Part shown: in pieces, positions 1,813-41,896 of the stretch
Layout: every line of letters begins with the position of its first letter
Numbering within the stretch: the stretch's first letter is position 1
DNA from: a virus
Length of the DNA: 64,000 bases
Direction: 5' to 3' (one strand)
Virus record (IMG/VR): IMGVR_UViG_3300009168_000007
Span: 1-64,000 of that record
Position numbers and translations under genes: made by a program
Notes under the pieces: generated by a model
Told to the model about the DNA's origin: nothing
The model's input: the letters and a program-made list of their open reading frames with translations, nothing else
Databases searched by the model: none

Positions 1813-2155
1813 TTTTCATCGCCTCCTCTTGATCACGATAATCTTTTACCATTGACATGTGGAACCGGCAAATATCATAACGATGACTAAACGCTTCTTC
1901 TAATCTTGCCACCGTTACGCCCTGGTGGCGTTGCTCATCGGCGATACTTTCTATTTTCTTTATCAGCCCGTTCGATATTTGTAATTGCATGTTAGAAACC
2001 TGTATCGTCACCGACTTTTCAAGGCCGTCTACCTTCGTCGATAATTTACCGAAAGTGAAGGATATGATTGCAACATTAATCAATACAGTTAGAAATAATA
2101 CGCACAAACTTATAATGATCGGGATAATACTAAATGTATTTACAGCTTGTTCCAT
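1796..2155 (-). CDS. Small membrane protein with a coiled-coil tail
   Basis: This 119-residue protein has one strong hydrophobic segment (residues about 8-38, FSIIPIIISLCVLFLTVLIN) followed by a heptad-like helical region (residues about 40-90) and a charged end. It overlaps the glycosyltransferase-like gene upstream by 26 bp and the connector gene by 17 bp, so it is translationally coupled to both. A single transmembrane helix plus coiled coil is seen in pinholins, spanins and some injected proteins, but nothing identifies which. Function unknown. Confidence 0.6.
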   Translation of the reverse strand: MEQAVNTFSIIPIIISLCVLFLTVLINVAIISFTFGKLSTKVDGLEKSVTIQVSNMQLQISNGLIKKIESIADEQRHQGVTVARLEEAFSHRYDICRFHMSMVKDYRDQEEAMKNGPIA

Positions 2156-26363: not shown

Positions 26364-27104
26364 ATGAAGGACCATAGTTCTGTCAAAAAATATAATACCA
26401 CCCAGTTAAATGTTGCCGAAACGTTCGAGCGGCATATCTATCACCGAGATTATTTTGCCCATTACCTTAGATGGACGCACGTACTCAAATGCGCGCGTAG
26501 TGCAATGAAAATACTTGATGTGGGGTGTGGGTCAGGTAATCTCTACGAAGTGTTCTACCGCAACCGGTTTCAACCGAAACGATACCTCGGGCTCGATATC
26601 AGGAAGAAAACAATCGAATTGAACCGTGTTAGGTTCCCCAAGGCCGAATTTGAGGTGCAAGATCTTTGCCGCCCGTACGATTATACCGATAAATGGGACA
26701 TGATCGTCTCGTTCGAGGTGATCGAGCACATAGGCAAACAAAATGGTGAAATCTTTCTCGACAATATCGTTCGCCATGCCCACGGTAAAACGATCATCCT
26801 CCTTTCTACCCCTTGTTTTGATCCGCAAGTTGGCGCCGCAGACAACCACATGATCGAAGGTGAAGTCGGTGAGTTCACGTACCCTGAACTCAAGGAATTA
26901 CTACAAAAATTCTTTGTGATCGACCGTGTGTATGGAACGTTTGCTTCCATAAAAGATTATAAACCGAAGATGAGCAAAGCCCATCAGGAGATGTTTACTC
27001 AACTGTCCACATATTACGATAGCAACATAATGTCCGTGATCTTTGCTCCACTCTATCCCGAATGTTCTCGTAATTGCATTTGGAGGATGCATATACCAAC
27101 GTGA
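26364..27104 (+). CDS. SAM-dependent class I methyltransferase
   Basis: The 246-residue product has motif I KILDVGCGSGNLYEVF (residues about 50-65), motif II LGLDIRKKTIELNR and the strand-4 segment WDMIVSFEVIEHI. This is a complete Rossmann-fold methyltransferase of the methyltransf-11/23 type. No DNA-methylase catalytic motif (PPY or PC) is visible, so the substrate may be a small molecule, sugar or modified base. It is followed by the glycosylase-like gene with a GTGA overlap. Confidence 0.8.
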   Translation: MKDHSSVKKYNTTQLNVAETFERHIYHRDYFAHYLRWTHVLKCARSAMKILDVGCGSGNLYEVFYRNRFQPKRYLGLDIRKKTIELNRVRFPKAEFEVQDLCRPYDYTDKWDMIVSFEVIEHIGKQNGEIFLDNIVRHAHGKTIILLSTPCFDPQVGAADNHMIEGEVGEFTYPELKELLQKFFVIDRVYGTFASIKDYKPKMSKAHQEMFTQLSTYYDSNIMSVIFAPLYPECSRNCIWRMHIPT

Positions 27105-27550
27105 TTATTTTTGGGTTGTTGCAGAACCAATATTTAAAGAATCCCGAACGAATGGTGGATATGGTAAAAAGATACGGGGAGGACTCCCGTGAGGTATTTA
27201 CAAAACATGCCCTATTTGCTGGATGTAAAACAGGGCAAAATCTCACGAGGATCTTTGGTCCTGAAGCGAAAACATGGATATGGGTAAACTGTACGCCACA
27301 AATAGGACGTACGACGAGTGAGCGATTTCCAACCGATCTTGATTATATTATTGGAAAGTTGGAACACTACCAACCCGATATCATCATGGCTTTCGGCGGT
27401 CAGGCACGGGACGCGATGAGAAGAATAAAGACAGATGTTCCGGTTATTTTTACTGTTCATCCGGTCAATTGGGATCATGGGTCAACCGATCGATTATATA
27501 CGGCGAGAAATGAACTAGATAGATTAAAGGAGACATTCGATGGGCAATAG
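27101..27550 (+). CDS. Uracil-DNA glycosylase superfamily-like protein
   Basis: I place the start at GTG 27101, which overlaps the previous stop; a TTG at 27074 is an alternative. The product shows the UDG-fold order: ALFAGCKTGQNLTRIFG (like the G-x-SG-x-L element), WVNCTPQIGRTTSERF, then YQPDIIMAFGGQARDAM (as kPxxilalGxxA), then VIFTVHPVNW for the HPS motif. Key residues differ from family 4/5 enzymes (no GExPG), so activity is uncertain. Position between a methyltransferase and a nucleotide kinase fusion suggests a part in base handling. Confidence 0.6.
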   Translation: MIIFGLLQNQYLKNPERMVDMVKRYGEDSREVFTKHALFAGCKTGQNLTRIFGPEAKTWIWVNCTPQIGRTTSERFPTDLDYIIGKLEHYQPDIIMAFGGQARDAMRRIKTDVPVIFTVHPVNWDHGSTDRLYTARNELDRLKETFDGQ

Positions 27551-28589
27551 ATTATTGAACGACGTGTATGAGTTTCATAAAAAATATAATGTTCCAATTA
27601 TGGATGAAGGATCATTGGGTTTTGCCGAGGATGGTCTGATAGACGCAAAAATTAATCACATAAAAGAAGAAACAAGTGAAATTATCGATGCATGGGCAAA
27701 GGAAGATATTTATGATTTTGCCGATGGAATCGTAGACCTTATTTATGTAACATTAGGACTTGCGATCGTGTGTGGTATACCGTTTGACCGCGTGTGGAAT
27801 GAGGTACATACCTCTAATATGAAAAAGGTAGCGGTAGAACGATTAGATCAAAGTAAACGAGGTAATCGGTGGGATGTCGTAAAACCTGAAGGTTGGGAAC
27901 CCCCGAACATTGAGAAAGCTTTCACGAGCGCAAAATATCCTTCGGATAATTATGACTTCAATCGCATATTTGTTCTTGAAGGTCCCGACGGATGCGGGAA
28001 AACAACCCTTGCGAAACAAATGATGTTCTTGATGAGAGGGCTTGGTTTATATCCGTATTACCGTCATTTTACATATCCATTATGGCCGAACGTATCGGAC
28101 TACATGGCTAATATTATGGTAGACGCGGTCAATCAAATCAAGCATGGACCCGTGATCCTGGACAGGTCGTTCATATCGGACATGTTCTATTCCCGCGTGT
28201 TCCGTCATAATCGTGGCATAATGTTAGAGGATGGTATGGCGGAGACGTTGGATTTACTACTCCAGAGAAATGACGTGGTAACGGTTGTTTGCCTACCGGA
28301 ATTTGATGAGTATCGTAAGAACTATATTACAAAATTGAAGGACCATACCGAAATACACACCGAAATTGCCGGCATGGATTGTATCTATATGATGTATTCA
28401 ATGTTACAAAGATCTCAACGGGTGATCCCGTACAACTACAAGATAAACAATATACATTATATCACAAAGTCAATGGAGAAACATATCAGCCAACATGAAA
28501 TTTCGATCTTCGAATATGCACATTATATCGTAAATAACGTGTCGGCCGAAGAGTTACGAGGTAATAGCTATGGCGCTATCGGCGTATGA
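27540..28589 (+). CDS. Fusion of MazG-like NTP pyrophosphohydrolase and dNMP kinase
   Basis: Residues 1-115 are MazG-like/PRA-PH-like: KEETSEIIDAW gives the ExxE metal motif, DFADGIVDLIYVTLG the ExxD counterpart, and EVHTSNMKKV is the usual end. Residues about 140-349 are a P-loop nucleotide kinase of the thymidylate kinase class: FVLEGPDGCGKTTLAKQ and VILDRSFISDMFYSR. The first domain would cleave a dNTP to dNMP, the second phosphorylate a dNMP. Joined, this resembles T4 dCTPase plus dNMP kinase. The start follows AGGAGA. Domain calls are good; substrates are not visible. Confidence 0.8.
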   Translation: MGNRLLNDVYEFHKKYNVPIMDEGSLGFAEDGLIDAKINHIKEETSEIIDAWAKEDIYDFADGIVDLIYVTLGLAIVCGIPFDRVWNEVHTSNMKKVAVERLDQSKRGNRWDVVKPEGWEPPNIEKAFTSAKYPSDNYDFNRIFVLEGPDGCGKTTLAKQMMFLMRGLGLYPYYRHFTYPLWPNVSDYMANIMVDAVNQIKHGPVILDRSFISDMFYSRVFRHNRGIMLEDGMAETLDLLLQRNDVVTVVCLPEFDEYRKNYITKLKDHTEIHTEIAGMDCIYMMYSMLQRSQRVIPYNYKINNIHYITKSMEKHISQHEISIFEYAHYIVNNVSAEELRGNSYGAIGV

Positions 28590-28761
28590 CGAGGGATACG
28601 CCGCCGGTCGTATAGATAGCCATGACGGCGTAAAACCAAAACCCGATACGAACCCATACTCACTCTCTTGTAAAAAGAAACGTCGAGCATGGGAGAACGG
28701 GTACCTCACAGGGTACCAGGGAAAACCACAAAGGCAACATATTTTGCCATGGAGTGAATGA
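28570..28761 (+). CDS. Rmf/CrpP-like small protein
   Basis: The 63-residue product has the ribosome modulation factor pattern: AYDEGYAAGRID, NPYSLSCKKKRRAWENGYLT, then GYQG. Rmf binds ribosomes in stationary phase; phage relatives are common and may bind ribosomes or have other roles. It overlaps the kinase gene by 20 bp and the next gene by 4 bp. Confidence 0.7.
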   Translation: MALSAYDEGYAAGRIDSHDGVKPKPDTNPYSLSCKKKRRAWENGYLTGYQGKPQRQHILPWSE

Positions 28762-29372
28762 TGAGTGAACCTTTAAAAATAGAAGACCGTCAAAACAATT
28801 CTGAACAGAACGAACTAGTGGAAGAACTCATCAAGTTAAAAAATGAGTTCTACAATGTAGCCATGAAGAGTATGCATGAACATGGTGAAATGGCCAAGTT
28901 ACAGGAAAAATCGGCGGAGGAAGCAGAACTTGAATTAATGGACAAGTTTGAACACGATAAAGCAAAATTTTACAAACAACTCGCGTTGAAGGATTCCGCG
29001 GTTATGCATGAAATAAATAAACTCCGCGATCAAAACTATCCTGCCGACGACCCAAATCCAAGGGAAGATATTCGTAATTCACTTGAGTTTCGGTTACGGG
29101 TTGTTCTGAATAAGTATTTTCGTGATGGTTGTATATGTCCAAAGGACCTTAACAACCTAAAACTCGATTTTCAATCCATGCTCGTATATCTCGAGACGAT
29201 CATGAATGATAAACAAATTGTTTACAATCATGGTTATATTCTCAAGCAGATATTTAAAATTATTACCGGTCGAAGTCACAACTATGAACGAGAAAATGCT
29301 ATTATCGTTCCAAAAATAAACTCGACTATACCAATCACGGCGGTTGGTATAAACAATGAAGATTCTAAGTAA
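28758..29372 (+). CDS. Coiled-coil protein of unknown function
   Basis: The 204-residue product is helical and charged throughout its first 100 residues (LVEELIKLKNEFYNVAMKSM), then has CICPKDLNNLKLDFQSML and a less regular end. No catalytic motif is visible. Coupled to both neighbours by overlaps. Confidence 0.6.
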   Translation: MMSEPLKIEDRQNNSEQNELVEELIKLKNEFYNVAMKSMHEHGEMAKLQEKSAEEAELELMDKFEHDKAKFYKQLALKDSAVMHEINKLRDQNYPADDPNPREDIRNSLEFRLRVVLNKYFRDGCICPKDLNNLKLDFQSMLVYLETIMNDKQIVYNHGYILKQIFKIITGRSHNYERENAIIVPKINSTIPITAVGINNEDSK

Positions 29373-29907
29373 AGACCAAAGTTTACGGATGTTTCAGCAG
29401 GGATTATTCGGGAATGCGGTCCGGCTCTGGATGAATCCCACAGAATTTTTGTCAGACCTCTCATTTAAGGGAACCCGTGTATCGATTCGATATAATGGAA
29501 TCAACGGCGGCGGACCGCGACAATTCAAGGTGCCCGTTCATGACATACCCTACGTAGTTTCTTGTTGGGTGCTTCGTGGTTACGAGTATGATAGGATTAT
29601 CTTCAACGAGGATATGTACGACATTGCATGGGTGCAATGCGAAGTGATGGATCTTCCGGGGGGACTTTATTTAGGTTACAAAGAGATCACGAGTGATCAG
29701 TCGCTCGCGAACCGTGAATTAAATTGTTTGGTTGGATTACAAGCGAAACAATATCTCATGGCCCACATGGATCCGTCGTCCTATAACGATATGTGGGCAT
29801 TATTCGACGAATATCCAGATTCGGTGATCGAGTTAACAATATGTCATGAGCAGATCGGAAATATCCCAGGTAGAAATACTATATTCTTCGAGGTAAGGAA
29901 CTATTAG
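29356..29907 (+). CDS. Unknown protein (183 residues)
   Basis: The product is rich in Tyr, Trp and Asn with mixed strands and helices (VSIRYNGINGGGPRQFKVPV; MDLPGGLYLGYKEITSD). It overlaps the gene before by 17 bp. I recognise no family. Its place in the nucleotide/replication operon is the only clue. Confidence 0.6.
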   Translation: MKILSKDQSLRMFQQGLFGNAVRLWMNPTEFLSDLSFKGTRVSIRYNGINGGGPRQFKVPVHDIPYVVSCWVLRGYEYDRIIFNEDMYDIAWVQCEVMDLPGGLYLGYKEITSDQSLANRELNCLVGLQAKQYLMAHMDPSSYNDMWALFDEYPDSVIELTICHEQIGNIPGRNTIFFEVRNY

Positions 29908-29908
29908 C

Positions 29909-30133
29909 ATGTCATACGACCCTGACGATATGATGGAGGAAAAACCCGTACCTGCGCACGTGCGGGAGAAACTGAAGCAGGCCAGCAAATTTAACGAAGA
30001 TATTGTTCGTTACAAGGAAATGGTCGACCATGAAGGTGAATTCAACCGTGCCGAAAGGCGGCGGAGAACGAAGGCAATTGTGAAGATTCAAAAGAAGGCA
30101 AAGAAAGTGAGGGCCAACCATGGAAAATATTAA
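29909..30133 (+). CDS. Small basic helical protein
   Basis: The 74-residue product is acidic at the start (DPDDMMEEKPVPAHV) and strongly basic in its second half (RAERRRRTKAIVKIQKKAKK-type helix). The basic helix suggests nucleic acid binding. It overlaps the thyX gene by 14 bp. Confidence 0.55.
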   Translation: MSYDPDDMMEEKPVPAHVREKLKQASKFNEDIVRYKEMVDHEGEFNRAERRRRTKAIVKIQKKAKKVRANHGKY

Positions 30134-31103
30134 AAGTAGTATGTTAGATATGAAGCATAAGATCGGCAATTTTGGATTTGTCGAAGTCGATGGGATGTTT
30201 GGCGACGAAAATACAATTGTGAAAGTCGCCCGACAATCGATCGGCACAAATATGCCGAAACATGATAAGATCACCTTGATCAAAGAGATCGTGGAATACC
30301 GGCATGGGACCCCGCTTGAAGCGTTAAAGATTCGACTCCACGTGAAAGTTCCTCGTCACGTGTGGGAACAATGGAAACGGTACCGTACCGCTTCATTTGT
30401 GGAATTTTCGACTCGCTACTCCGAAGCCATGTTGGATGCGGAAGTACCGAGTACTACCGATCTTCGATTTGAATCCGAAAAGTTGGTCGATTATCCGACA
30501 AATCGGCAAAAGATCATCGAATTGATTCAAGAATTTACCGATCGATCGTCAACATTATATTCGGAATTACGAAAGTATGGGTTGTTAAAAGAAATGGCTA
30601 GGGGAGTACTAACCATGCTCACGTACACGGAGGCTTATTGGACGATCGATCTCAATAATCTCTTATACCATTTTTGTCTTCAACGATTAAACCCGCATGC
30701 ACAAAAAGAGTTTCGTGATTATGCCTATGTCATTTCTAAAATCATAGCAGAATGGGTTCCGAACGTGTGGAATGCCTTTGAAAATTACTGGTTAAATTCC
30801 TTAACTTTTTCGAGGGACGAGATCATGGCCATGAATGGACGTGATATGTACACTAATATTACTTACTTTGCCATGACAAAAAAAGAACACACGACCATGG
30901 CAAATAAGTTAAAAAGGTTAGGATTAAATCCTGTAGCCTTTATGGCCAATATCGTTGTGAAGAACGATAATTGGTTCATTGAGAATGTTGATTTATCGAA
31001 TTTATCGACCACGCATGTGGACAATATAGTAATGAAAGACGATAAATATTTTACAAACAGAACTTATCCCGCTTATCCCGATAGATCTGATGGAGAAAAG
31101 TAA
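30120..31103 (+). CDS. thyX: ThyX-like flavin-dependent thymidylate synthase
   Basis: The 327-residue product contains EYRHGTPLEALKIRLHVKVP and a ThyX motif in the form RYRTASFVEFSTRY (residues 87-100; consensus RHRxxSxNExSxRY). H88 is replaced by Tyr and the Asn by Val, while both Arg, both Ser, Glu and the final RY are kept. The later LTYTEAYWTIDLNNLLYHF and AQKEFRDYAYVI fit the FAD/dUMP-binding helices. It is longer than usual at the C-terminus. It would convert dUMP to dTMP using FAD and NADPH. Fold confident; activity uncertain because of the two changes. Confidence 0.8.
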   Translation: MENIKSSMLDMKHKIGNFGFVEVDGMFGDENTIVKVARQSIGTNMPKHDKITLIKEIVEYRHGTPLEALKIRLHVKVPRHVWEQWKRYRTASFVEFSTRYSEAMLDAEVPSTTDLRFESEKLVDYPTNRQKIIELIQEFTDRSSTLYSELRKYGLLKEMARGVLTMLTYTEAYWTIDLNNLLYHFCLQRLNPHAQKEFRDYAYVISKIIAEWVPNVWNAFENYWLNSLTFSRDEIMAMNGRDMYTNITYFAMTKKEHTTMANKLKRLGLNPVAFMANIVVKNDNWFIENVDLSNLSTTHVDNIVMKDDKYFTNRTYPAYPDRSDGEK

Positions 31104-32038
31104 TGTCATTTGAGAACGATTTAACCTGGTCATATTCGCGGTATAACAAATTTAGCATGTGCAAGCGCCAATATTTCTATCATTACTATCTGTCATGGGG
31201 TGGATGGAATATTGGCGCACCGAAGGATGTCCAACTGGCCTATCGTTTGAAAAACCTTATGGGGTTAGCCGGTTGGGTTGGCGACACGATCCATAAGGAG
31301 ATCGAGACTTTATTAAAGATGCTATCCTCCGGCACGACAATGAGCAAAAAAATTCGTGCCGACATTCTTCGAAATTTGCCGAAACAAATGACGAAGGAAT
31401 GGTTAGCCTCCAAAAAACAAACAATGGAGGGGAATCCAAAATCCCTGTGGTTAATAGACCACTATTATAGTCTACAGGTAGATAATAAACTACAGGGACT
31501 TATCACTCAGGCCGTAGAGTGTATGTCCAATTTCCTCGACTCAGGTTTATTCTCTAGTATATTAAAATTAAATATACCGGAGAATTGGTTATCGATCGAG
31601 GAACTAAAATTTACCTTTGTTGCTGGGACAAAAGTGTGGGTAAAGATCGATTTTATCTATAAGGATGATAAGGATTATCTTGTTATGCTCGATTGGAAGA
31701 CGGGTAAGCGCAAAACGGCGGATGCGGCCCAGATGGGGATTTACGGTTGCTATTTACGTGAAACATATAATACATTTCCGGCATACAAAATTAAAGCCGT
31801 TGATGTTTACGTGAATAACAATCCACCGGTCCTTGAACCTTGGATAATTAAGGACAAGGATATTAAGTATGCTGAACAAATGATCACAAAAAGTATTGGC
31901 GAGATGATGGATCTTCTCAAAAAGAAGTCCACTAATACACCAAAAACAATTCAATACTTTCCAAGAGTCAATACGACTTGCCAGGGTATTTGTAACTGGT
32001 GTGGTTTTAGGCAATTATGCCATGGAGTCGACAAATGA
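31103..32038 (+). CDS. RecB/Cas4-like PD-(D/E)xK nuclease with Fe-S cysteines
   Basis: The 311-residue product opens with TWSYSRYNKFSMCKRQYFYHY, the typical start with first Cys. GDTIHKEIETLL gives the motif I helix, WVKIDFIYKDD and VMLDWKTGKRK give the D...D-x-K active site, and AAQMGIYGCYL the QxxxY helix. Near the end, TCQGICNWCGFRQLC holds the other Cys of a probable Fe-S cluster. Such nucleases act as single-strand exonucleases in replication or recombination. The gene touches thyX (ATG over the stop). Confidence 0.85.
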   Translation: MSFENDLTWSYSRYNKFSMCKRQYFYHYYLSWGGWNIGAPKDVQLAYRLKNLMGLAGWVGDTIHKEIETLLKMLSSGTTMSKKIRADILRNLPKQMTKEWLASKKQTMEGNPKSLWLIDHYYSLQVDNKLQGLITQAVECMSNFLDSGLFSSILKLNIPENWLSIEELKFTFVAGTKVWVKIDFIYKDDKDYLVMLDWKTGKRKTADAAQMGIYGCYLRETYNTFPAYKIKAVDVYVNNNPPVLEPWIIKDKDIKYAEQMITKSIGEMMDLLKKKSTNTPKTIQYFPRVNTTCQGICNWCGFRQLCHGVDK

Positions 32039-32799
32039 ATAAAAATTACTTGACGGCAGAGGAATATTTCGAAGGGTTACTCCCAGAGTCCAAGGTTCAA
32101 TATTCGCTTTGGATAAAAGGGCGTGCGGGCGGATCGGTCGTTAAACGATTCGAGGATGATATTAATCACGCAAGGCGGTATATAGAAGAACATAAGAGCG
32201 GATTAATCAAGGGCGATATGACCGCAGGTTTTATCGATTATTATGGTGGAGATGTGGTCGGTGAATCGATTAATGAGCACAATCAAGAATTAATGATTAA
32301 GGCTTACAACGCCCTAGCCTTAATCTCCTTGGAAAAAGACGATATAAAACCTGTGCTACAATATAGTGATCTTGATTATTCGCTCGACGGTTTGATCTCG
32401 ATTTATCGGGATAAGTTGAAGGGTATCCAAAGGTCAATGCGTCGTATACACGATATTGACGTGAACGACCAACGTCTTGTTCACGTATGGTGGAATATAA
32501 TGTTTCAAAGAACCATTAAACCTCCGGCACAAACGGAACTATACACAAAATTATTTACATCGATCTTCATTTACCCGTGCGCATACCCACATAGAATATT
32601 TAGGTTGCCATGGATACGTGCAGCTTTATCGTCAGGATTCGAATATTGTCAACTATTTGGTCCGTACATAAATGTAAAAATAGCCACCACAAAAACGGCA
32701 GACGACGTTAAAAAATTATTATGTTATGATCCGACCCATATCACGGTTCATATCATGGAGGACGGCGATGATCCCACCGAAAACAATGACACTATCTAG
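32035..32799 (+). CDS. Unknown protein (254 residues)
   Basis: The start at 32035 overlaps the nuclease stop. The product is mostly helical (DDINHARRYIEEHKSGL; LISIYRDKLKGIQRSMRRIH) with an aromatic middle (FIYPCAYPHRIFRLPWIRAA). No motif recognised. The 3' end overlaps the dCMP deaminase gene by 32 bp. Confidence 0.55.
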   Translation: MNKNYLTAEEYFEGLLPESKVQYSLWIKGRAGGSVVKRFEDDINHARRYIEEHKSGLIKGDMTAGFIDYYGGDVVGESINEHNQELMIKAYNALALISLEKDDIKPVLQYSDLDYSLDGLISIYRDKLKGIQRSMRRIHDIDVNDQRLVHVWWNIMFQRTIKPPAQTELYTKLFTSIFIYPCAYPHRIFRLPWIRAALSSGFEYCQLFGPYINVKIATTKTADDVKKLLCYDPTHITVHIMEDGDDPTENNDTI

Positions 32800-33280
32800 T
32801 GCGTTTAGCATGCAGGAGACTTGCCTCGCGGTTGCGGGAGTAATTGCGATCTCAAGATCGAAGGACCCACGTACTAAAGTGGGTGCGGTGGTGTATGACC
32901 CGGAAACGGGAGGAATGTTCTTTGGGTATAATGGGTTCCCAAAAAATATTCCTGATGAAACGGCCATTTGGGAAACACCTAATAAGTACGACTATGTCGT
33001 ACATGCCGAGGTAAATGCTATCCGTAAGGCCACTTCAGCTCTAGGCCATCATGTGTCACGGTGCGAATTATATAGCACCAATCATCCCTGTCATTGTTGC
33101 ATGAAGGATGCAATCATACCGGCGGGGATCAAGAAGATCCGTTATATTAATTCTCACCCTGAGGACGAGTTAACGGACGAGTGGATTAAGATGCTTGAAA
33201 TTGATGTTAGACAATTGACCATCCACATGACGTTGGAGTTAACGATTAATGGAAAAAAAGTAACATATACGACAAAATAA
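32768..33280 (+). CDS. dCMP deaminase
   Basis: I start at ATG 32768 behind GGAGG. The 170-residue product has the zinc-deaminase set: DPRTKVGAVVYDPETG, VVHAEVNAIRKAT (HAE with proton-shuttle Glu) and NHPCHCCMKDAIIPAG (PCxxC). It converts dCMP to dUMP, the substrate of ThyX. Length and motifs fit phage dCMP deaminases. The C-terminal strand region (HMTLELTINGKKVTY) is extra. The next gene starts over the stop (TAATG). Confidence 0.88.
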   Translation: MIPPKTMTLSSAFSMQETCLAVAGVIAISRSKDPRTKVGAVVYDPETGGMFFGYNGFPKNIPDETAIWETPNKYDYVVHAEVNAIRKATSALGHHVSRCELYSTNHPCHCCMKDAIIPAGIKKIRYINSHPEDELTDEWIKMLEIDVRQLTIHMTLELTINGKKVTYTTK

Positions 33281-34824
33281 TGACCACAAAAATAGATGTT
33301 GCAAAAAGACTTGCGGATAGGAAGGTTGAAGATTACAAGAAAGCCAACGTGGTTTTGCCTCCTTGTAACTTTTCGTTTAGGACAAAACCGTATAAACATC
33401 AGAAAAAAGGTTTCTTGTTAACTCGCGACCAACCAATTTTTGCTTTAACGATGGACATGGGTACAGGTAAAACAAAAGTAATTATCGACAATATTTGTTA
33501 CTTGTTCATTAAAGGCAAAATCAATGGGGCCATAATCGTGGCACCCGCAAGCATGTATTTCCAATGGTCGCTTGAACAATGGCCGGAACATGCCCTTGAG
33601 AGTGTGATGTCGCGAACCAATATTATTTTGTGGGACGCGGCAAAAGCACCTAGCATGTTAAAGTATGACTTCCGTGGTCATCAGGACCGGCTTGATCTTC
33701 TCGTCATGAATGTCGAGTCATTCTCGGCTCACAAGAGACATCGAGCATCGGGAACCATGATGGCTATGCGGTTTCTAAAATATCGTAAGGCCATGTTCGT
33801 GGTCGATGAATCGACCATCATCAAAAGTACGACCGCGAGCCGTACTAAAGTTATCTGTAATCTAGGACATCTGGCCCCGTATAGACGTATTCTTACGGGC
33901 ACGCCTGTCACAAATTCGCCACTTGATTTGTATGGACAGTTCTCATTCCTAGACCAATCGATATTGGGTAGAAGTTTCGTAGCGTTTAGGGCTAAATATG
34001 CGGTATTGGAAGATCGATATGGTGCTGGTGGACGATCGTTCAAAACAGTCGTTGGTTATCAATGCCTCGACGATCTAAAGAAAACTATTGATCCTTATAC
34101 ATATCGTGTTACGAAAGAGGAATGTATCGATCTTCCTGAAAAAGTTTACCTTAAGTATGAGGTAAAATTAGGGAAAGAACAGCAAAAAATTTATGAGCAG
34201 ATGCGTGATCAAATGATCGTGGATTTGGGTAATGAGGAGTTCATCACGGCACAACTTGTTATCACAAAGATAATTAAGTTGCGCCAAATCCTCTGTGGTC
34301 ATGTGTTGACGGACGATGGGAGTGTTCACGCGGTTTTAGATTCAAATCGAGATGACGTCTTGCTCCATGTGCTGGAAGAAATGAATGGCAAGACAGTTAT
34401 ATGGTCGACGTTTATAGAATCAGTTGAACATATTGTTCAAAGATTATCAAAACAATATGGCCAAAAATCGATCATAAAATTTGCAGGTCGAGAAACACTT
34501 TCCCCAACAGATCGACACCGTATGGTCGATGAATTCAATAATAATTCGAAGGTACAATTTTTTGTAAGTACCCAGATGAAGGGGAAGTTTGGGTTGAACC
34601 TAGTCGGTGGAAATAATATGATTTACTACAATAATGATTATTCTCTCGACGTGAGGTTACAATCGCAGGACCGAATAAACCGTATCGGGCAAATAGCGAA
34701 AAAGATCACGTATGTGGATCTTTATGTTCCTGGTACGGTGGAGGAGAAGATATTTAAGATATTGAGAGAACGAAAAGACATCCTCGATTTTATTAACGGG
34801 GATAATTGGAAGGAATGGATATGA
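33280..34824 (+). CDS. SNF2-like superfamily 2 helicase / ATPase
   Basis: The 514-residue product has motif Q/I TKPYKHQKKGFLLTR and LTMDMGTGKTKVIID, a Walker B variant VVDESTIIK (DEST instead of DEAH), motif III RILTGTPVTNSPLD, motif V FFVSTQMKGKFGLNL and motif VI VRLQSQDRINRIGQ. It is a compact SNF2-type translocase as in many phage replication clusters, probably acting in replication restart or DNA remodelling. Confidence 0.88.
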   Translation: MTTKIDVAKRLADRKVEDYKKANVVLPPCNFSFRTKPYKHQKKGFLLTRDQPIFALTMDMGTGKTKVIIDNICYLFIKGKINGAIIVAPASMYFQWSLEQWPEHALESVMSRTNIILWDAAKAPSMLKYDFRGHQDRLDLLVMNVESFSAHKRHRASGTMMAMRFLKYRKAMFVVDESTIIKSTTASRTKVICNLGHLAPYRRILTGTPVTNSPLDLYGQFSFLDQSILGRSFVAFRAKYAVLEDRYGAGGRSFKTVVGYQCLDDLKKTIDPYTYRVTKEECIDLPEKVYLKYEVKLGKEQQKIYEQMRDQMIVDLGNEEFITAQLVITKIIKLRQILCGHVLTDDGSVHAVLDSNRDDVLLHVLEEMNGKTVIWSTFIESVEHIVQRLSKQYGQKSIIKFAGRETLSPTDRHRMVDEFNNNSKVQFFVSTQMKGKFGLNLVGGNNMIYYNNDYSLDVRLQSQDRINRIGQIAKKITYVDLYVPGTVEEKIFKILRERKDILDFINGDNWKEWI

Positions 34825-35132
34825 GTAAAGTATTCGTGGTTCAAGATTCTCCCGGTAAAAGTTTACTGGGAGCAAAAAATTTTGGTGAACTGAGAGTAAT
34901 TATCAACAACTCAAAGGAACAAACTTCCGAGATCGATAATACTCAATATGTTGATATTATGAAGGAAAAACTTCGTGGGTTTTCTGACCGTGATTATATT
35001 CTCCCAATCGGAGATCCGTCATTAATTGGACTTGCCTGCGCAATTGCAGCAGGTTTGAACGGTGGAAGATTCAAATGTCTCAAATGGGACAGAAGAGAAA
35101 AGGAATATTATGCAGTTTCCTTTAAGGTATAA
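34821..35132 (+). CDS. Unknown small protein of the replication operon
   Basis: The start at 34821 overlaps the helicase stop behind GGAAGGAAT. The 103-residue product has the pattern KVFVVQDSPGKSLLGAKNFG and YILPIGDPSLIGLACAIAAG, then a basic-aromatic end. A protein of this pattern accompanies helicase genes in several phages, to my memory. Function unknown. Confidence 0.6.
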   Translation: MSKVFVVQDSPGKSLLGAKNFGELRVIINNSKEQTSEIDNTQYVDIMKEKLRGFSDRDYILPIGDPSLIGLACAIAAGLNGGRFKCLKWDRREKEYYAVSFKV

Positions 35133-35136
35133 CATC

Positions 35137-35412
35137 ATGGCACAAAATATGAAATGTGGAAATTGTGCATGGTCCTTGCATCTTATCGTAAGGACCGAGC
35201 AAGTCGAACTTACGCGGGCGAACACAATCGGAGCCACACCGAAGACGAATGTGGTAAGACAGGAGATCGATAAGGGATGGTATTGTCGGAGTAATTTTAA
35301 ATGGTCGACGGACACTGGCGATTGTGAAATTGCTCCTGATGCACCCGCATGCCCTATCTTTATAGTAAGATTGGATGAAGACGCGCCACTCGATCCACAA
35401 TATAAATTCTAG
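35137..35412 (+). CDS. Small Cys-containing protein
   Basis: I start at ATG 35137 (MAQNMKCGNCAWS); an in-frame ATG further up is less likely. The 91-residue product has Cys pairs at the start (CGNC) and single Cys later (WYCRSN, GDCEIA, PACPIF), a pattern fitting a zinc site. Function unknown. Confidence 0.55.
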   Translation: MAQNMKCGNCAWSLHLIVRTEQVELTRANTIGATPKTNVVRQEIDKGWYCRSNFKWSTDTGDCEIAPDAPACPIFIVRLDEDAPLDPQYKF

Positions 35413-35420
35413 GAGGAATT

Positions 35421-36032
35421 ATGGTTGCAACAAATAAGTTACAGCAGGCGGCACGGAAGATGTCGCCTGATGAGAAAAAGATGGCCACAATCAGTCTCCT
35501 TGTAGCGAAGTATGTGGCCATTTCCGAGGAGATCGATTCGAGGGAGGCCGATCTCAAAATCAGGAAAATCGATCTTCGTAACATTGTTGAGGTTGAACTT
35601 CCTGAGGCCATGGATGAACTGGGGGTCACGCAATTTCAAACAGCTGACGGCTTAGAGATTGAAGTGAATAATGAGACCGCCGGCAACATCTCTGAAGCCA
35701 ATAAGGAAGCCGCCCATAAGTGGCTCAGGGATAAAGGTTATGGCGATATTATCAAAACCCAACTAATTATTTGGTTGGGTAAGGGAGAAGATAAGTTAAA
35801 GTCAATCGTAACCACGTTTCTTGATAAGAAGAAAATTGGTTACGAAGATAAGGAAGGAGTTCATGCACAAACGTTGAGAGCATTCATTAAAGAATGCCGC
35901 AAAAATGGCGTAAAGTTACCCGAAGATCTCTTCGGGTTATATGATTACCGTGTTGCAAAGATAAAGAAACTAAAGAAAGATATGAGTAAAACCAATGAAA
36001 AAACAACCCACGCCCGCGCCAGCAAAAAATAA
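35421..36032 (+). CDS. Helical replication-operon protein
   Basis: The start follows AGGAGGAATT. The 203-residue product has a coiled-coil N-terminus (YVAISEEIDSREADLKIRKI), a small domain (TQFQTADGLEIEVNNE) and a basic tail. A protein of this kind often precedes a phage single-strand binding protein. The overlap of 38 bp with the next gene supports a functional link. Function unknown. Confidence 0.6.
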   Translation: MVATNKLQQAARKMSPDEKKMATISLLVAKYVAISEEIDSREADLKIRKIDLRNIVEVELPEAMDELGVTQFQTADGLEIEVNNETAGNISEANKEAAHKWLRDKGYGDIIKTQLIIWLGKGEDKLKSIVTTFLDKKKIGYEDKEGVHAQTLRAFIKECRKNGVKLPEDLFGLYDYRVAKIKKLKKDMSKTNEKTTHARASKK

Positions 36033-36906
36033 ACCGGTACAAAAAGCATCCGTGAAAACGGCTCCACCGAAGGGCACAAAGAATGCTCTGGTGGTGAAAG
36101 AAAAAACCGCACCACCAGTAATTGCATCGTTAGCGAATAAGATGTATGCGAATCGTAGTCGAGGACTACAAAATATTACCCTTGATGATGTAGCCATACC
36201 TTTCGTATCGATTATTCAATCGGGATCCCCACAGAAAAATCCGCGGCATGAGAAATATATAGAGGGTGCCGAAGAAGGAGATATATTCAACACGGTTACG
36301 AATGAATTATACGCATCCGTGGATATTGTCCCTACGGCCTACAAGAAAGTATTTGTGGAGTGGAAGGATCGAAAAACCGGCGGTGGATTTGTCCGTATTC
36401 ATGATAAAAATTCGGCAATCGTTCAGAATGCAAAACGTAATGAGGACGGTAAGATTGTTCTTAGTAACGGTAACCTACTCGTAGAAACAGCCCAGTTCTT
36501 CGTATTACTTGTGGATGTAGATAACCAGGACGATATCGTGGGGGTTCAACGGGCCGTACTTGCATTCACAAGCACCCAACTCAAGAAATCACGGAAATGG
36601 GTCACTCAGATGCGTGAGTTAATGTTAGACGGTGATGAGGGATTATTTAATCCACCCATGTTCGCCTATATCTATACAATATCAACACAGAGTGAGTCAA
36701 ACGACAAGGGTTCGTGGTTCGGGTGGAACATTGAGATAAATAAAATGGTTGAATCCGAAAGATTATTCGATTTAGCCCAACAATATTCGATATCGATCGA
36801 CGCCGGTGAAGGTCCTGAGGTTGATTATAGTAAATCAGGAATGGACACAGATGTGGTTCCTCCGGTCGAAGACGGCAATGACGACGATGAGCATGACGCC
36901 TATTAA
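35995..36906 (+). CDS. Putative single-stranded DNA binding protein
   Basis: The 303-residue product has a basic Pro/Lys-rich N-terminus, a core starting LDDVAIPFVSIIQSGSPQ, an EGDIFNTVTNELY segment, strand-rich middle and a strongly acidic C-terminal tail (EDGNDDDEHDAY). The IPFxxxxQ start and acidic tail are typical of a class of phage proteins annotated as SSB-like. It lies before primase and helicase genes. Call based on pattern and context. Confidence 0.6.
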   Translation: MKKQPTPAPAKNKPVQKASVKTAPPKGTKNALVVKEKTAPPVIASLANKMYANRSRGLQNITLDDVAIPFVSIIQSGSPQKNPRHEKYIEGAEEGDIFNTVTNELYASVDIVPTAYKKVFVEWKDRKTGGGFVRIHDKNSAIVQNAKRNEDGKIVLSNGNLLVETAQFFVLLVDVDNQDDIVGVQRAVLAFTSTQLKKSRKWVTQMRELMLDGDEGLFNPPMFAYIYTISTQSESNDKGSWFGWNIEINKMVESERLFDLAQQYSISIDAGEGPEVDYSKSGMDTDVVPPVEDGNDDDEHDAY

Positions 36907-36948
36907 ATATTAATTGCGTAGTTAAATGTAGTCAGCATGTGTTATATA

Positions 36949-36973
36949 GGAGAGGGGCCAAAAACCCCTCTCC
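36949..36973 (+). terminator. 9-bp hairpin between SSB-like and primase genes
   Basis: GGAGAGGGG (36949-36957) pairs with CCCCTCTCC (36965-36973) over a seven-base A-rich loop. No T run follows, and the primase start is 18 bases on, so it may be an attenuator or RNA-processing or stabilising site. Confidence 0.6.
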
Positions 36974-36990
36974 ACTTTGGTGAGGTGGTC

Positions 36991-38499
36991 ATGAATGTAG
37001 TCGATAAATTTGCCGCTTTATTTCAGGGGCTCAAACGTGCTTATGGTACGTATGAGATCGAAGAAGAAAAAGACGGTAAGAAAGTAGGGAGTGCAAGAAC
37101 AATAGTAGGAAAGTATGATAGCAATAATTGGAAAAGTCATCTTAATGGTCATATCGGGTTAGGGATCATTCCGATCATGGACGATAATACCGTGTCATGG
37201 GGGGTAATCGACGTAGATCGTTACGATTTAAACCCGAAAGAATTTAGTTGTAGCATTCACACACTTCCTTTTGTAATGTGTCGATCAAAATCGGGAGGCC
37301 TGCACATATTCCTATTCACAAAAGAGACCGTGCCAGCATCATTGATGAAAAACAAGTTGACGGAAGCGGCGGGAACACTTGGATTTGGCGGGTGCGAAGT
37401 ATTCCCTAAACAAACAAAGATAATTGCGTCTAAGGGTGATTTAGCTAACTGGCTAAACATGCCTTATTTTAATGCGAAAGATACCGAACGTTATTGTATC
37501 GCGAATGGTACAATACTCTCGGTGGAAGAATTTATTGAATACGCTTACTCGAAGCGTATTACAAAAAAGGAGCTCGAGAAATTTTCGGTACCGGTCGGCG
37601 GGCAATCTGACATATTCCCCGACGGTCCACCTTGCATAAATTATTTAGCAAAATTATCGTTCCCAAAGGGATCGCGTAATAATGGTCTTTTTGGTATCGG
37701 AGTTTACTTACGTAAATCTGATACCGAAAATTGGGAAACCGTACTTAATGAATGTAATAAAAAATATATGAAACCTCCGCTCAATGTTTCGGAGGTTAAA
37801 ATGGTAGTTAAGTCGTTAAATAAAAAGGTGTATAACTACAAATGCACCGACCAACCTTGTGTTTCACATTGCGATCGTGCACTTTGTTTAACTCGAGCGT
37901 ATGGCATAACTGACGAATCTAATCACGTTATACCTGTGGTATCTTCGATCATTAAATTCCTTACCGATCCCCCAATTTATTTTCTTGACGTTAATGGACG
38001 AAGGATCGGACCGGTGATTATAGACGAATTGATCGTGCCATTTCGGTTCCAACGTTTGTGTGCACAGGAATTAAATACCATGATCCCAACGATGAAAAGA
38101 ACAGATTGGGACGGTATGTGGAATAGATTAATGGAGAATGTCGTAAACGTGGATGTACCTTTCGAGGATTCAAACAAGGGACAACTCATGCAACGGTTGA
38201 ACGAATTTTGCACGGGTCAAAAGATGACATCAAATATCGATCAAATACTTGTTGGTCGAGTTTATTATAATGAGGAATTACTTGAGTATTGGTTTCGTGG
38301 CAGAGATTTCCTAGACTATATTTCTACACAATCATTTAAGGGGTTGGACCCAAATGAGATTTACTCCATTTTAAAGAACTATGGTCTAACAAATAATACA
38401 ATACAGGTAAAAGAAACGACGTTAAATGTGTGGGTTTACAAACCCACGATTATTACAACACCCGTAGCGCCACACATGGAACCGGAGCACCCATACTAA
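36991..38499 (+). CDS. Archaeo-eukaryotic-type (AEP) primase with PriCT-like domain
   Basis: I start at ATG 36991 behind GAGGTGG. The 502-residue product has the AEP catalytic set: SWGVIDVDRYDL (D74, D76), CRSKSGGLHIFLF (sxH) and GGCEVFPKQTKI (third acidic/Lys site). A PriCT-like region follows (FPKGSRNNGLFGIGVYLRKS), then a Cys motif (CTDQPCVSHCDRALC). The last 180 residues are of unknown type. It would start DNA synthesis in this phage. Its stop overlaps the helicase start (TAATG). Confidence 0.82.
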   Translation: MNVVDKFAALFQGLKRAYGTYEIEEEKDGKKVGSARTIVGKYDSNNWKSHLNGHIGLGIIPIMDDNTVSWGVIDVDRYDLNPKEFSCSIHTLPFVMCRSKSGGLHIFLFTKETVPASLMKNKLTEAAGTLGFGGCEVFPKQTKIIASKGDLANWLNMPYFNAKDTERYCIANGTILSVEEFIEYAYSKRITKKELEKFSVPVGGQSDIFPDGPPCINYLAKLSFPKGSRNNGLFGIGVYLRKSDTENWETVLNECNKKYMKPPLNVSEVKMVVKSLNKKVYNYKCTDQPCVSHCDRALCLTRAYGITDESNHVIPVVSSIIKFLTDPPIYFLDVNGRRIGPVIIDELIVPFRFQRLCAQELNTMIPTMKRTDWDGMWNRLMENVVNVDVPFEDSNKGQLMQRLNEFCTGQKMTSNIDQILVGRVYYNEELLEYWFRGRDFLDYISTQSFKGLDPNEIYSILKNYGLTNNTIQVKETTLNVWVYKPTIITTPVAPHMEPEHPY

Positions 38500-40022
38500 T
38501 GAAAACAACATTAATCATGGGACCCCCGGGAACGGGGAAAACAACCACATTAGTGAATATTCTAAAAAGTTCGCTTAAAAAATATAAGCCGTACGAGATT
38601 GCTTACTTATCGTTTACTCGTAAAGCCGCGTATGAAGCACGAGATCGCGTGATCACACAGGTCACCGGCTTTGCGCCCGAGGAATTTTTGTATATTTCAA
38701 CGATACATTCGATCACGTTTAACCTCCTTGGATTATCCACAAGGGATATGTTCGGATATGAACATGCTGTTTATCTTGGTAGGAAATTGGGTGTGGATTT
38801 ATCAAATGTACATAGGGTTGTTGGTGATGATGACCTTCAGGTCGTTTCTTTTGCTCAGGATGAAGGTTCTATCATGTTGGCGATAGATAATTTTGCTCGG
38901 ATCAAATGTATAACGTTACGCGAAGCGGCTAACCAGTTCAACTCAAGCACTCCGATTGACTACGTAAAACTCGAATGGTTTTGCGAGAGTTATTCACGTT
39001 ACAAGAAACATAACGGGATACTCGATTTCACGGACATACTCGAGCAATATATTGACCGTGGTATTGTCCCTAAATTGAAGGTCGTGATTATTGACGAGGC
39101 CCAAGATTTGTCATCGCTACAATGGCGCGTAATTGAAAAGTTAACTTGTAACGTTGATAAAGTGTATATAGCGGGGGACGACGATCAGGCTATATACGAG
39201 TGGGCGGGGGCGGATGTGGACAATTTCCTCCACATCAAAAAAGATGAGTATAAGGTCCTTGGTCAATCATACCGATTGCCGAGACAAATATATGAATATG
39301 CGAATCAGATCTCGTCAAGAATTGAGAACCGGTACCAAAAAGATTGGCTGCCGAACAATGACGAAGGATCGGTTTCGTATGTATCAAGTTGCGAGGAGTT
39401 ACCGCTACAAACTGGTAACTGGATGATCCTGTGCCGTAACAAAATGTTTACAAAAACGTTTGAAAAACATTGTTGGTCGCAGGGTTTTTCATATAAGTCA
39501 TACAACTTTGATTCATCAAAATTGGAGGCGATTACGGTCGCTAAATATTGGGAAAAGATGAGGAATGGTTCGGCGTTGACGACGGATCAAGCGACATTGG
39601 TCTATAAATATCTACGCCCAGGTACGGGCGTGGACAAAAAATTTAGTAGAAATTTGAAATGGCGGCAGGACTTGCCGCTCACGATGAATAATCTCGTTGA
39701 ATATTATGGACTATTAAAGACTGAGATATGGCACAAGTCGTTGGAGAAAATAAATCCAGGACTAGTATACTATATCATTGGTATGTTACGGCAAAAGGAA
39801 CCGACAAATCACTATCGGATCCTGATCAGCACGATTCATGCCGTTAAGGGCGCAGAATGTGACAACGTGGTTGTGTGCCCTGATATGACGAATATGACCC
39901 ATCTTTACATGAACAAGGATCATGCACGAGAAGATCGTGTCTTTTATGTGGCAACAACGAGGGCAAAAAAAGCTCTCTACTTATTATACCCGAAAAAAGA
40001 GCGCCATTATACGCTCCCGTAG
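38499..40022 (+). CDS. UvrD/Dda-like superfamily 1 helicase
   Basis: I start at ATG 38499, coupled to the primase stop. The 507-residue product has Walker A IMGPPGTGKTTTLV (residues 6-19), motif Ia LSFTRKAAYEARDRV, Walker B VVIIDEAQDLSSLQW, motif III AGDDDQAIYEWAGAD, motif V STIHAVKGAECDNV and motif VI FYVATTRAKKALYLL. It is a complete SF1A helicase and likely the replicative or repair helicase. Confidence 0.9.
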   Translation: MKTTLIMGPPGTGKTTTLVNILKSSLKKYKPYEIAYLSFTRKAAYEARDRVITQVTGFAPEEFLYISTIHSITFNLLGLSTRDMFGYEHAVYLGRKLGVDLSNVHRVVGDDDLQVVSFAQDEGSIMLAIDNFARIKCITLREAANQFNSSTPIDYVKLEWFCESYSRYKKHNGILDFTDILEQYIDRGIVPKLKVVIIDEAQDLSSLQWRVIEKLTCNVDKVYIAGDDDQAIYEWAGADVDNFLHIKKDEYKVLGQSYRLPRQIYEYANQISSRIENRYQKDWLPNNDEGSVSYVSSCEELPLQTGNWMILCRNKMFTKTFEKHCWSQGFSYKSYNFDSSKLEAITVAKYWEKMRNGSALTTDQATLVYKYLRPGTGVDKKFSRNLKWRQDLPLTMNNLVEYYGLLKTEIWHKSLEKINPGLVYYIIGMLRQKEPTNHYRILISTIHAVKGAECDNVVVCPDMTNMTHLYMNKDHAREDRVFYVATTRAKKALYLLYPKKERHYTLP

Positions 40023-40036
40023 AAAGGAGAAAGAAG

Positions 40037-40270
40037 ATGACGAGGAATAGCATGAATAAGGAGCGACAAATTATTGATACGTGCCGATTATTAGAACAAA
40101 TATTGGGGTTAGACCATGGCTTAATTACTAGTGATATATTTAACATGATTAGTATTCTAATTATAGGAACATTTTATTCAGAAGAAATATCAGAAGAAAT
40201 ATACAAGTTGGCTGATGTGGTCGAGGAAACACTCGACCAAGAATTAGAAATAGCAAAATCATGGAGGTGA
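40037..40270 (+). CDS. Small helical protein
   Basis: The start follows AAGGAGAAAGAAG. The 77-residue product is helical and acidic at the end (IYKLADVVEETLDQELEIAK). It is the first of three short genes before the ThyA-like gene. Function unknown. Confidence 0.55.
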   Translation: MTRNSMNKERQIIDTCRLLEQILGLDHGLITSDIFNMISILIIGTFYSEEISEEIYKLADVVEETLDQELEIAKSWR

Positions 40271-40273
40271 CAC

Positions 40274-40453
40274 ATGAGCATATCATTGAAAGAAGCTAAA
40301 CGTTTAGTAAAAGAATTAGATGAACTTGATGAACTAACTGATTGGGAATCACGGTTTATCGAGTCAATGGTTGATTGGGTGATTGAACAAAATCGTCACC
40401 CAACAGAAAAGCAATCGAATATATTACAAAGAATGGAGGAAGATTATTTATGA
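40274..40453 (+). CDS. Small phage protein with LTxWExxFIxS pattern (59 residues)
   Basis: ATG at 40274 follows GGAGGTGACAC. The product reads MSISLKEAKRLVKELDELDE, then LTDWESRFIESMVDWVI and PTEKQSNILQRMEEDY. This order, a W-x-x-xFI-x-S helix and a KQ-x-x-ILxRM helix, is common in short phage proteins encoded in replication clusters. Its stop overlaps the next start. Confidence 0.7.
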   Translation: MSISLKEAKRLVKELDELDELTDWESRFIESMVDWVIEQNRHPTEKQSNILQRMEEDYL

Positions 40454-41661
40454 GACACATATTCGCCAAGAATGTAAATTATGCCTTCGTCGAAGGTATA
40501 ACCTTAATCGGTAAATACCATATAGAAGTAGCACCGAGAGGTATGAAGACGTTTGAATTTGATTCACCCGTTGTTACACAATACCAATTTCCATGCGAAT
40601 GTATATTATTCAACCGGTTCCGCCAGATTAATCCATTTTTCCATTTCTTTGAATCATTATGGATATTGGCAGGAAGAAATGATGTGGAGTTTCTTCGTCA
40701 ATTTAACGAAAAAGTTGTAGACTTTTCTGATAATGGTGGTCAATTCCATGGAGCCTATGGATATCGATTAAGAAAACTTGAAAGAATAGTTATTCCGTCG
40801 TATAAGCGCACTATAATAGACACTATAACGATCAAGAGAGATCAGTTAGTCGAGATCGTAAAACTCTTGAAAAGAGATCCTAGTTCTCGGCAGGGGGTTC
40901 TTCAAATATGGGACCCGATAATCGACTTGAATGTCGAATCATCCGATATTCCTTGTAACACGACCGCCTATTTCAAGATACGAGGCAATTATTTAAATAT
41001 GTCCGTCTTTTGCCGGTCGAACGATCTCATCTGGGGAGCCTATGGTACAGATTGTGTGCAATTTAGTACCATACAACAATATCTAGCCATGAAGTTAGGA
41101 TTATCTGTAGGAACGTATCACCACTGGAGCGATAGTTTACACGTGTATATCGAACGACCAGATTGGGAATTATATAGTAGTATGGCTGAATGTGGACGAT
41201 TACTCGCTGAGGATCCATATTTAACGGGCGACATTATTCCGAGATATATAATTGGTGACGCCGATCAATTCGATCTTGATATGGAGTTATTTTTTCATAT
41301 ATGGAAAGAACTTTGTGCTAATATCGACCACATTTATGGAATAAATTTATGCCCTGGACCCATGAGAAACGACAATTATGAATGGTACCATGACCTAATC
41401 GACCGTTTTGATCATCCATATTTTCGAACAGCCGTTATTCCAATGTTCGTTATGTGGCGATATCATTTATGTTGGAAGAAGTACGGTAAGTTACCGAAAC
41501 ATCATACCCCGATTAAGGATTTACTATATAGTCATGATGACTTAAGGTGCGATTGGATACTGGCCGCCGTAAGGTGGCTATTCAAGAAAGAACACAAAGA
41601 GGTTCTTCATGTTGACGATTGGATTTATTCTAGTAATTATCGTAATAATTTTTTGGTGTAG
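40450..41661 (+). CDS. ThyA-family enzyme with Asn-to-Asp change (dCMP hydroxymethylase-like)
   Basis: The 403-residue product aligns by eye with thymidylate synthase: SSRQGVLQIWDP (phosphate-binding Arg), DIPCNTTAYFKI (catalytic C169), FCRSNDLIWGAYGTDCVQFS and GTYHHWSDSLHVY (HxY). Counting back from the GLSVG turn, D201 falls at the position of the conserved Asn (E. coli N177) that reads the uracil ring. Asp there is known from dCMP hydroxymethylases such as T4 gp42. As a ThyX is also encoded, the predicted substrate is dCMP. The C-terminal about 150 residues are extra. Family sure, substrate inferred. Confidence 0.8.
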   Translation: MRHIFAKNVNYAFVEGITLIGKYHIEVAPRGMKTFEFDSPVVTQYQFPCECILFNRFRQINPFFHFFESLWILAGRNDVEFLRQFNEKVVDFSDNGGQFHGAYGYRLRKLERIVIPSYKRTIIDTITIKRDQLVEIVKLLKRDPSSRQGVLQIWDPIIDLNVESSDIPCNTTAYFKIRGNYLNMSVFCRSNDLIWGAYGTDCVQFSTIQQYLAMKLGLSVGTYHHWSDSLHVYIERPDWELYSSMAECGRLLAEDPYLTGDIIPRYIIGDADQFDLDMELFFHIWKELCANIDHIYGINLCPGPMRNDNYEWYHDLIDRFDHPYFRTAVIPMFVMWRYHLCWKKYGKLPKHHTPIKDLLYSHDDLRCDWILAAVRWLFKKEHKEVLHVDDWIYSSNYRNNFLV

Positions 41662-41896
41662 TATTGGAGGATTTTTCTGTGGTCAGGTTAATGTATTATG
41701 TAACAGTAAAATAATAAAACCTGACAAATATATGTATGTTTTTTGTATTGTCCTTACGCCATATATACTAGTTCATCGTATTGGAGTATATTTAAATGTT
41801 AAAAAAGAAGAACGGAAAATTGATTTGGAGTCCAACAAAAGATCTACCAGACCTTTCGTCGGCAAGGATGATCGCAGTGGATACGGAGACCTATGA
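41609..41896 (+). CDS. Small membrane protein overlapping the polymerase gene
   Basis: ATG at 41609 lies inside the end of the ThyA-like gene, behind AGAGG. The 95-residue product has two hydrophobic stretches (IGFILVIIVIIFWCSIGGFF; MYVFCIVLTPYILVHRIGVY) and a polar tail that overlaps the polymerase gene by 101 bp in another frame. Function unknown. Confidence 0.5.
   Translation: MLTIGFILVIIVIIFWCSIGGFFCGQVNVLCNSKIIKPDKYMYVFCIVLTPYILVHRIGVYLNVKKEERKIDLESNKRSTRPFVGKDDRSGYGDL

Follow-up and report, generated by a model that had tools for sequence, protein, structure and literature searches.

We analysed a window of 64,000 nucleotides, which covers 64,000 of the 64,533 bases of the uncultured virus record IMGVR_UViG_3300009168_000007, and focused on a ThyA-superfamily protein encoded at 40450-41661 (+) and on the block of genes around it. 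Our results suggest that this phage probably replaces cytosine by a 5-hydroxymethylcytosine (5hmC)-type base, using a dCMP hydroxymethylase that arose within a clade of dUMP hydroxymethylases and has switched its base. The protein matches Pfam Thymidylat_synt (2.1e-17), carries D166, C169, N170, and D201, and is predicted to be a dCMP-specific pyrimidine hydroxymethylase. Five features can be read from the sequence itself: the gene content of the block, the uniqueness of Asp201, the clade to which the enzyme belongs, the loss of a 5-hydroxymethyldeoxyuridine (5hmdU) kinase, and membership of a recurrent gene cassette.

The residue that carries this reading is Asp201 (codon GAT, 41050-41052, +). 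In the MAFFT alignments that we used to set the residue register of the thymidylate synthase (TS)-like protein, Asp201 falls in the base-reading column of Asn177 of E. coli TS, as the initial annotation had proposed. On its two sides, G199 and V203 are invariant in a 33-row alignment, so the register is safe, and the alternative alignment with T200 as base reader is ruled out. As uracil-type relatives we took the best 80 of 583 IMG/VR relatives from a clade-profile scan with the dUMP-hydroxymethylase clade. Asn occupies the base-reading column in all relatives of this type examined (80/80); the window phage has Asp. DNA-pattern searches for the base-reading motif covered 2.9 million viral contigs. 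The Asn form of the pattern found at least 120 stretches, including 115 new loci, some on contigs already seen, all of which were confirmed as clade members with Asn. The sole stretch with the Asp form lies on a second contig of the same phage (L002), from another metagenome, which is 99.988% identical over 16.3 kb (2 of 16,310 bases differ) and encodes an identical TS-like protein. A one-off sequencing error at Asp201 is therefore unlikely, and we rejected it. An Asp-form match in bacterial genomes (L306) was a chance match, with no TS at that place.

Published enzymes show what Asp at this position can do. Asp179 is the cytosine determinant of the T4 dCMP hydroxymethylase, in which a further Asp, three residues before the active-site Cys (Cys-3), activates water; the D145N variant makes no 5-hydroxymethyl-dCMP (5hm-dCMP) (PMC6400193). 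The substitution N177D converts TS to dCMP, and TS proteins on modified-cytosine contigs are marked by Asp177 (PMC8670742). MilA, T4 gp42, and BcmA have Asp in common, and TS and the SPO1 dUMP hydroxymethylase have Asn (PMC5175136). At Cys-3 the window enzyme has Asp166 (D166-I-P-C169), as in the uracil clade, and phage AXL1 has Asn; because Asp166 stands three residues before Cys169, hydroxymethylation is predicted. Written as the residues at Cys-3, Cys, Cys+1, and column 177, the code is D-C-N-D in the window, L-C-H-N in E. coli TS, D-C-N-N in 80/80 members of the uracil clade, and D-C-T-D in 80/80 members of the AXL3-type cytosine clade, for which we took the best 80 of 252 IMG/VR relatives of the cassette TS described below. 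We suggest a two-residue code for Cys-3 and column 177, in which Leu/Asn would indicate TS, Asp/Asn a dUMP hydroxymethylase, Asn/Asp the AXL1 type, and Asp/Asp a dCMP hydroxymethylase, with the last three classes drawn in part from published enzymes (T4, SPO1, MilA) and in part by deduction. The window enzyme is Asp/Asp. An AlphaFold2 model of it (mean pLDDT 85) gave the CMP hydroxymethylase MilA as its best Foldseek match.

By its sequence, the enzyme belongs by descent to the dUMP-hydroxymethylase clade (SPO1/SP82, Pseudomonas M6/YuA, and PaMx11; PHROG 5131). It shares with this clade full-length homology (phrog_5131, 3e-88), a GAYG motif with a one-residue insertion, Asp at Cys-3, Asn after the Cys, and a C-terminal extension, and its nearest annotated relatives are those of PaMx11, M6/YuA, Sonora, and SP82G, at 31-39% identity. 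A maximum-likelihood tree places it in a 50-row uracil-type clade with SP82G (99 SH-aLRT), away from the AXL3-type cytosine clade, and the insertion, Asn170, and the C-terminal extension agree with this placement. Parsimony on the sampled tree counts 4 changes of Asn/Asp state. We judge the window enzyme to be a dCMP hydroxymethylase of independent descent. The cytosine-directed ThyA-family enzyme of the initial annotation is supported by Asp201, Asp166, and the cassette context; descent from T4 gp42 is not, given the clade in which the enzyme falls.

The surroundings of the gene combine two types of phage. In the uracil-type loci L053 and L103, the gene order is gp33/gp34-like, primase, UvrD-like helicase, methyltransferase, 5hmdU DNA kinase, TS, and PolA, with the 5hmdU DNA kinase in the same interval in L059. 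The window gene likewise lies between the UvrD-like helicase and PolA, the usual place in the uracil clade and one shared with syntenic IMG/VR relatives. The window differs from these phages in having Asp201, ThyX, and a MazG-kinase fusion, and in lacking the 5hmdU DNA kinase. This kinase (PF18723) was found in 47/47 tested uracil-type records and not in the window, and ThyX, present in the window, in 0/47. In M6, thymidine hypermodification proceeds via 5hmdU and the 5hmdU DNA kinase (PMC6449724). Cytosine-type records show ThyX in 17/50 and the 5hmdU kinase in 1/50, and phage AXL3 also has ThyX; the two sets differ with Fisher values of 4e-27 for the kinase and 3e-6 for ThyX, computed on records that are not independent. 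One cytosine-type record (G084, the record of L160) encodes both a 5hmdU-kinase-like protein and ThyX and may be a second mixed phage.

On the other side, the window shares genes with the cytosine-type cassette found in Stenotrophomonas phage AXL3, PW916, ctUtU524, ct3Et533, and 80 IMG/VR loci. A tblastn search with the window's class I S-adenosylmethionine methyltransferase (MT1; 26364-27104, +; Pfam Methyltransf_23, 6e-13), a candidate modifying enzyme, returned five phage records only, including AXL3, PW916, and ct3Et533, in which the methyltransferase is followed by MazG, a kinase, and a TS with Asp. A MazG homologue lies at most 10 kb from the TS in 71/80 cytosine-type versus 0/80 uracil-type loci, and a methyltransferase homologue near it in 62/80 versus 8/80. 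The order methyltransferase, MazG, kinase, TS is never scrambled, and in several cassettes the TS is followed by PolA, gp33, gp34, primase, UvrD, and SNF2. The window keeps its methyltransferase, MazG, and kinase genes in cassette order and has the UDG-like (uracil-DNA glycosylase-like) domain and the Asp of the base-reading column; it differs in having no cassette TS, in the fusion of MazG to the kinase, and in a UDG-like domain that is freestanding and not the C-terminus of the kinase. The record has a single ThyA-family match, and unrelated open reading frames (ORFs) follow the fusion gene. The initial annotation had seen a pathway built from unrelated parts; these genes are instead a recurrent AXL3-type cassette whose own TS is missing.

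The replication genes have mixed affinities as well. The window primase falls on the cytosine side (98 SH-aLRT); the nearest rows by path are cytosine-type for PolA and SNF2 and uracil-type for the UvrD-like helicase. Taken together, these affinities suggest a phage of the cytosine type that lacks the cassette TS and has an enzyme of the uracil clade in the position typical of uracil-type phages; the direction of change would have been loss of the cassette TS, with its role filled by this enzyme. AXL3 DNA was cut by 2 of 37 restriction enzymes (TasI and Tru1I, with A/T-only sites) and resisted the 35 with G/C in their sites (PMC7504290). Most cytosine-type cassettes contain a member of the methyltransferase family of 26364-27104, and more distant members adjoin the 5hmdU kinase in a few uracil-type phages (L053 and L103); this family may act on 5-hydroxymethyl groups. 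The window's ThyX, Cas4-like, UDG-like, and 32017-32799 proteins gave nothing by tblastn against the subset of loci searched in this way, and the UDG-like protein needed a profile.

The methyltransferase gene and that of the UDG-fold protein (27074-27550, +) lie, as first annotated, beside the gene for a MazG-type NTP pyrophosphohydrolase fused to a dNMP-kinase-like P-loop domain (27540-28589, +; PRA-PH, 2.6e-11), a predicted dCTPase and 5hm-dCMP kinase. The fusion is present in the window and in 0/55 cassette records. Cytosine-type kinases are long in 46/55 records, with a C-terminal domain of about 120 amino acids that touches Pfam UDG (best 9e-4, 6 of 29 members). Against a profile of this domain, the UDG-fold protein, itself below the cut-off of PF03167 (0.0026), is the top-scoring of all window ORFs (E 0.007, against 0.24 for the runner-up), and the hhalign probability for the pair is 71%. 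A model of the protein (pLDDT 70) matches UdgX and family-4 UDG (Foldseek, 7e-5), and the rows of its alignment are those same kinase domains. The C-terminal domain of the cassette kinase has probably been split off to form the UDG-like protein, a link of moderate strength, and the wiring would differ as MazG plus kinase::UDG in the cytosine-type set versus UDG plus MazG::kinase in the window. The domain, which forms the C-terminus of most cytosine-type cassette kinases (L110-L189), has an ORF of its own in the window, and it may have a part in base sensing or error removal for 5hm-dCMP. For the kinase part, the best solved relative by profile is SPBc2 YorR, and the matches that follow include NDUFA10 and thymidylate kinases; this indicates a dNMP-kinase-like fold. 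The proposed parallel to T4 dCTPase and gp1 is supported at the level of function, and in comparative genomics MazG, kinase, and methyltransferase all go with cytosine-type phages; the profile matches do not support kinship of the kinase with gp1.

We propose the following pathway, in which the substrate, the product, and whatever the methyltransferase may add are inferred. MazG, whose specificity is predicted, would break dCTP down to dCMP. The ThyA-like enzyme would hydroxymethylate dCMP, with Cys169 attacking C6, Asp201 reading and protonating N3 of cytosine, and Asp166 activating water. 5hm-dCMP would then be phosphorylated by the kinase domain, together with host enzymes, to the triphosphate that the family A polymerase uses, and the predicted product is 5hmC or a further modified cytosine. 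Ordinary thymine would still be made, with dCMP deaminase supplying dUMP to ThyX (30120-31103, +; Thy1, 2e-36), the separate source of dTMP that had been annotated. A dUMP-hydroxymethylase lineage would thus have taken over cytosine by Asn-to-Asp at 201, replacing the usual dCMP hydroxymethylase of the cassette. The window shares its overall functional scheme and both key Asp residues with the T4 gp42 pathway, with its dCTPase and gp1 kinase, but it has a TS of another clade, a MazG-type dCTPase candidate, a YorR/TMK-like kinase, and no demonstrated glucosyltransferase. On modified-cytosine contigs, MetaGPA detected TS proteins carrying Asp177 along with PRA-PH and dCMP deaminase domains (PMC8670742), a combination also present here, although the window has no carbamoyltransferase.

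Several observations weigh against this reading. The main caveat, and a serious point against a clean switch of specificity, is Asn170: at E. coli position 147, one of the two most discriminating positions (PMC8670742), the enzyme keeps the uracil-clade residue, which is Thr in all 80 cytosine-type enzymes. The Ser of the T4 Ser94-x-Tyr96 signature is Gly101 in the window (G101-A-Y103); AXL3 gp28 also has G-A-Y there, so Gly101 is not a sign of uracil specificity. The placement in the tree is not final by itself: in an approximately unbiased (AU) test, a topology that groups the window enzyme and the cytosine-type TS clade is not rejected (p 0.215). We put forward only tentatively, as a more specific scenario, that a single natural Asn-to-Asp change left the rest of a uracil-type active site in place, that the resident cassette enzyme was displaced, and that an undescribed cytosine modification results from the action of the methyltransferase and its UDG-fold partner on 5hm-dCMP or 5hmC DNA.

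Clade membership and Asn170 would also fit an enzyme that is still a dUMP hydroxymethylase, or a dual one, in a phage with 5-hydroxymethyluracil or hypermodified thymine where Asp201 is tolerated. However, Asp stands in this column in 0/80 aligned relatives, the 5hmdU kinase of all 47 tested relatives is missing, ThyX, absent from those 47, is present, and so is the cytosine cassette; we consider this reading unlikely, if less so than the others. That the enzyme is a dCMP methylase, with 5-methylcytosine (5mC) replacing cytosine as in Xp12, could be argued from the finding that Asn-to-Asp alone makes canonical TS a dCMP methylase (PMC8670742) and from AXL1, in which a related MazG (40% identity) and dCMP deaminase lie beside a D-type TS and for which its authors suggest 5mC from relatedness to Xp12. 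Yet Cys-3 is Asn in AXL1 and Asp166 here, the T4 D145N change abolishes hydroxymethylation, and the clade of the window enzyme consists of hydroxymethylases. Reductive methylation also needs dihydrofolate reductase, which AXL1 has and which we recognised in none of the window proteins scanned. We regard methylation as highly improbable. A plain nucleotide-salvage set with unaltered virion bases is the least probable reading of all. Phages with ordinary DNA also carry dCMP deaminase, ThyX, and MazG, but a second, hydroxymethylase-type ThyA protein would be superfluous for salvage, Asp166 and Asp201 would make a poor TS, and the cassette is conserved in phages, one of which, AXL3, has refractory DNA.

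Replacement or hypermodification of cytosine, as initially suggested, is well supported by sequence in its cytosine-directed part, and the glycosyltransferase added to it is not. Capping of 5hm-dCMP by a GT-B-like product, by glucosylation as in T4 or otherwise, is very unlikely, slightly less so than methylation. The gene in question (2130-3017, -) lies outside the block, in the head operon on the minus strand, and its matches to Epimerase_2 (0.012), the surface-carbohydrate family TIGR04396 (0.0036), and KpsC (0.09) are marginal, none reaching a curated cut-off. These weak kin act on surface polysaccharide, the gene has no IMG/VR relatives besides the same phage, and there was no match to the T4 beta-glucosyltransferase family, though the positive control also gave none. 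We set aside glucosylation by this product and rejected carbamoylation (no carbamoyltransferase, PF02543, in the window or 49 cassette records) and a Z-genome, for which the polymerase has a below-cut-off DpoZ match (no adenylosuccinate synthetase family, hence no PurZ).

The annotated genes of the block were all found in place, on the plus strand and co-directional. Pfam, PHROGs, and NCBIfam make clear calls for ThyA-type TS, ThyX, dCMP deaminase, PRA-PH/MazG, and the class I methyltransferase, and give weak single-sequence matches for the kinase part and the UDG-like protein. ThyX is followed by a PD-(D/E)XK Cas4-like nuclease (31103-32038, +) with no assigned pathway role and by dCMP deaminase (32726-33280, +; 5.8e-16), whose true start may be further in. 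The replication block (33280-40022, +), common to uracil-type and cytosine-type relatives, encodes the SNF2 helicase, Pam3 gp32/33/34-like proteins, primase, and UvrD-like helicase; the proteins like gp32, gp33, and gp34 of cyanophage Pam3 (34806-36906) occur in both types of phage alike. The gene for the family A DNA polymerase (41796-43733, +) immediately follows the TS-like gene, an arrangement also seen in uracil-type relatives. In the structural operon, a second methyltransferase (45472-46326, -) near a beta-helix protein (46917-49949) is probably unrelated to DNA modification; this long, tail-fibre-like gene contains an internal repeat (48951-49604, ~540 bp, 75% identity, offset ~120 bp).

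If the proposed pathway is correct, the enzyme would be a natural counterpart, within the hydroxymethylase family, of the classical N177D mutation of TS, and a natural test case for base-specificity change in such enzymes. Phages would then be able to swap the modified pyrimidine by one residue and a change of neighbours, with the 5hmdU kinase lost and ThyX and a dCTPase gained. The two-residue code (Leu or Asp at Cys-3, Asn or Asp at column 177) could help to annotate hundreds of virome “thymidylate synthases.” The comparison also exposes a recurrent, uncharacterised cassette of methyltransferase, MazG, and kinase::UDG-like protein in phages such as AXL3 with restriction-resistant DNA.

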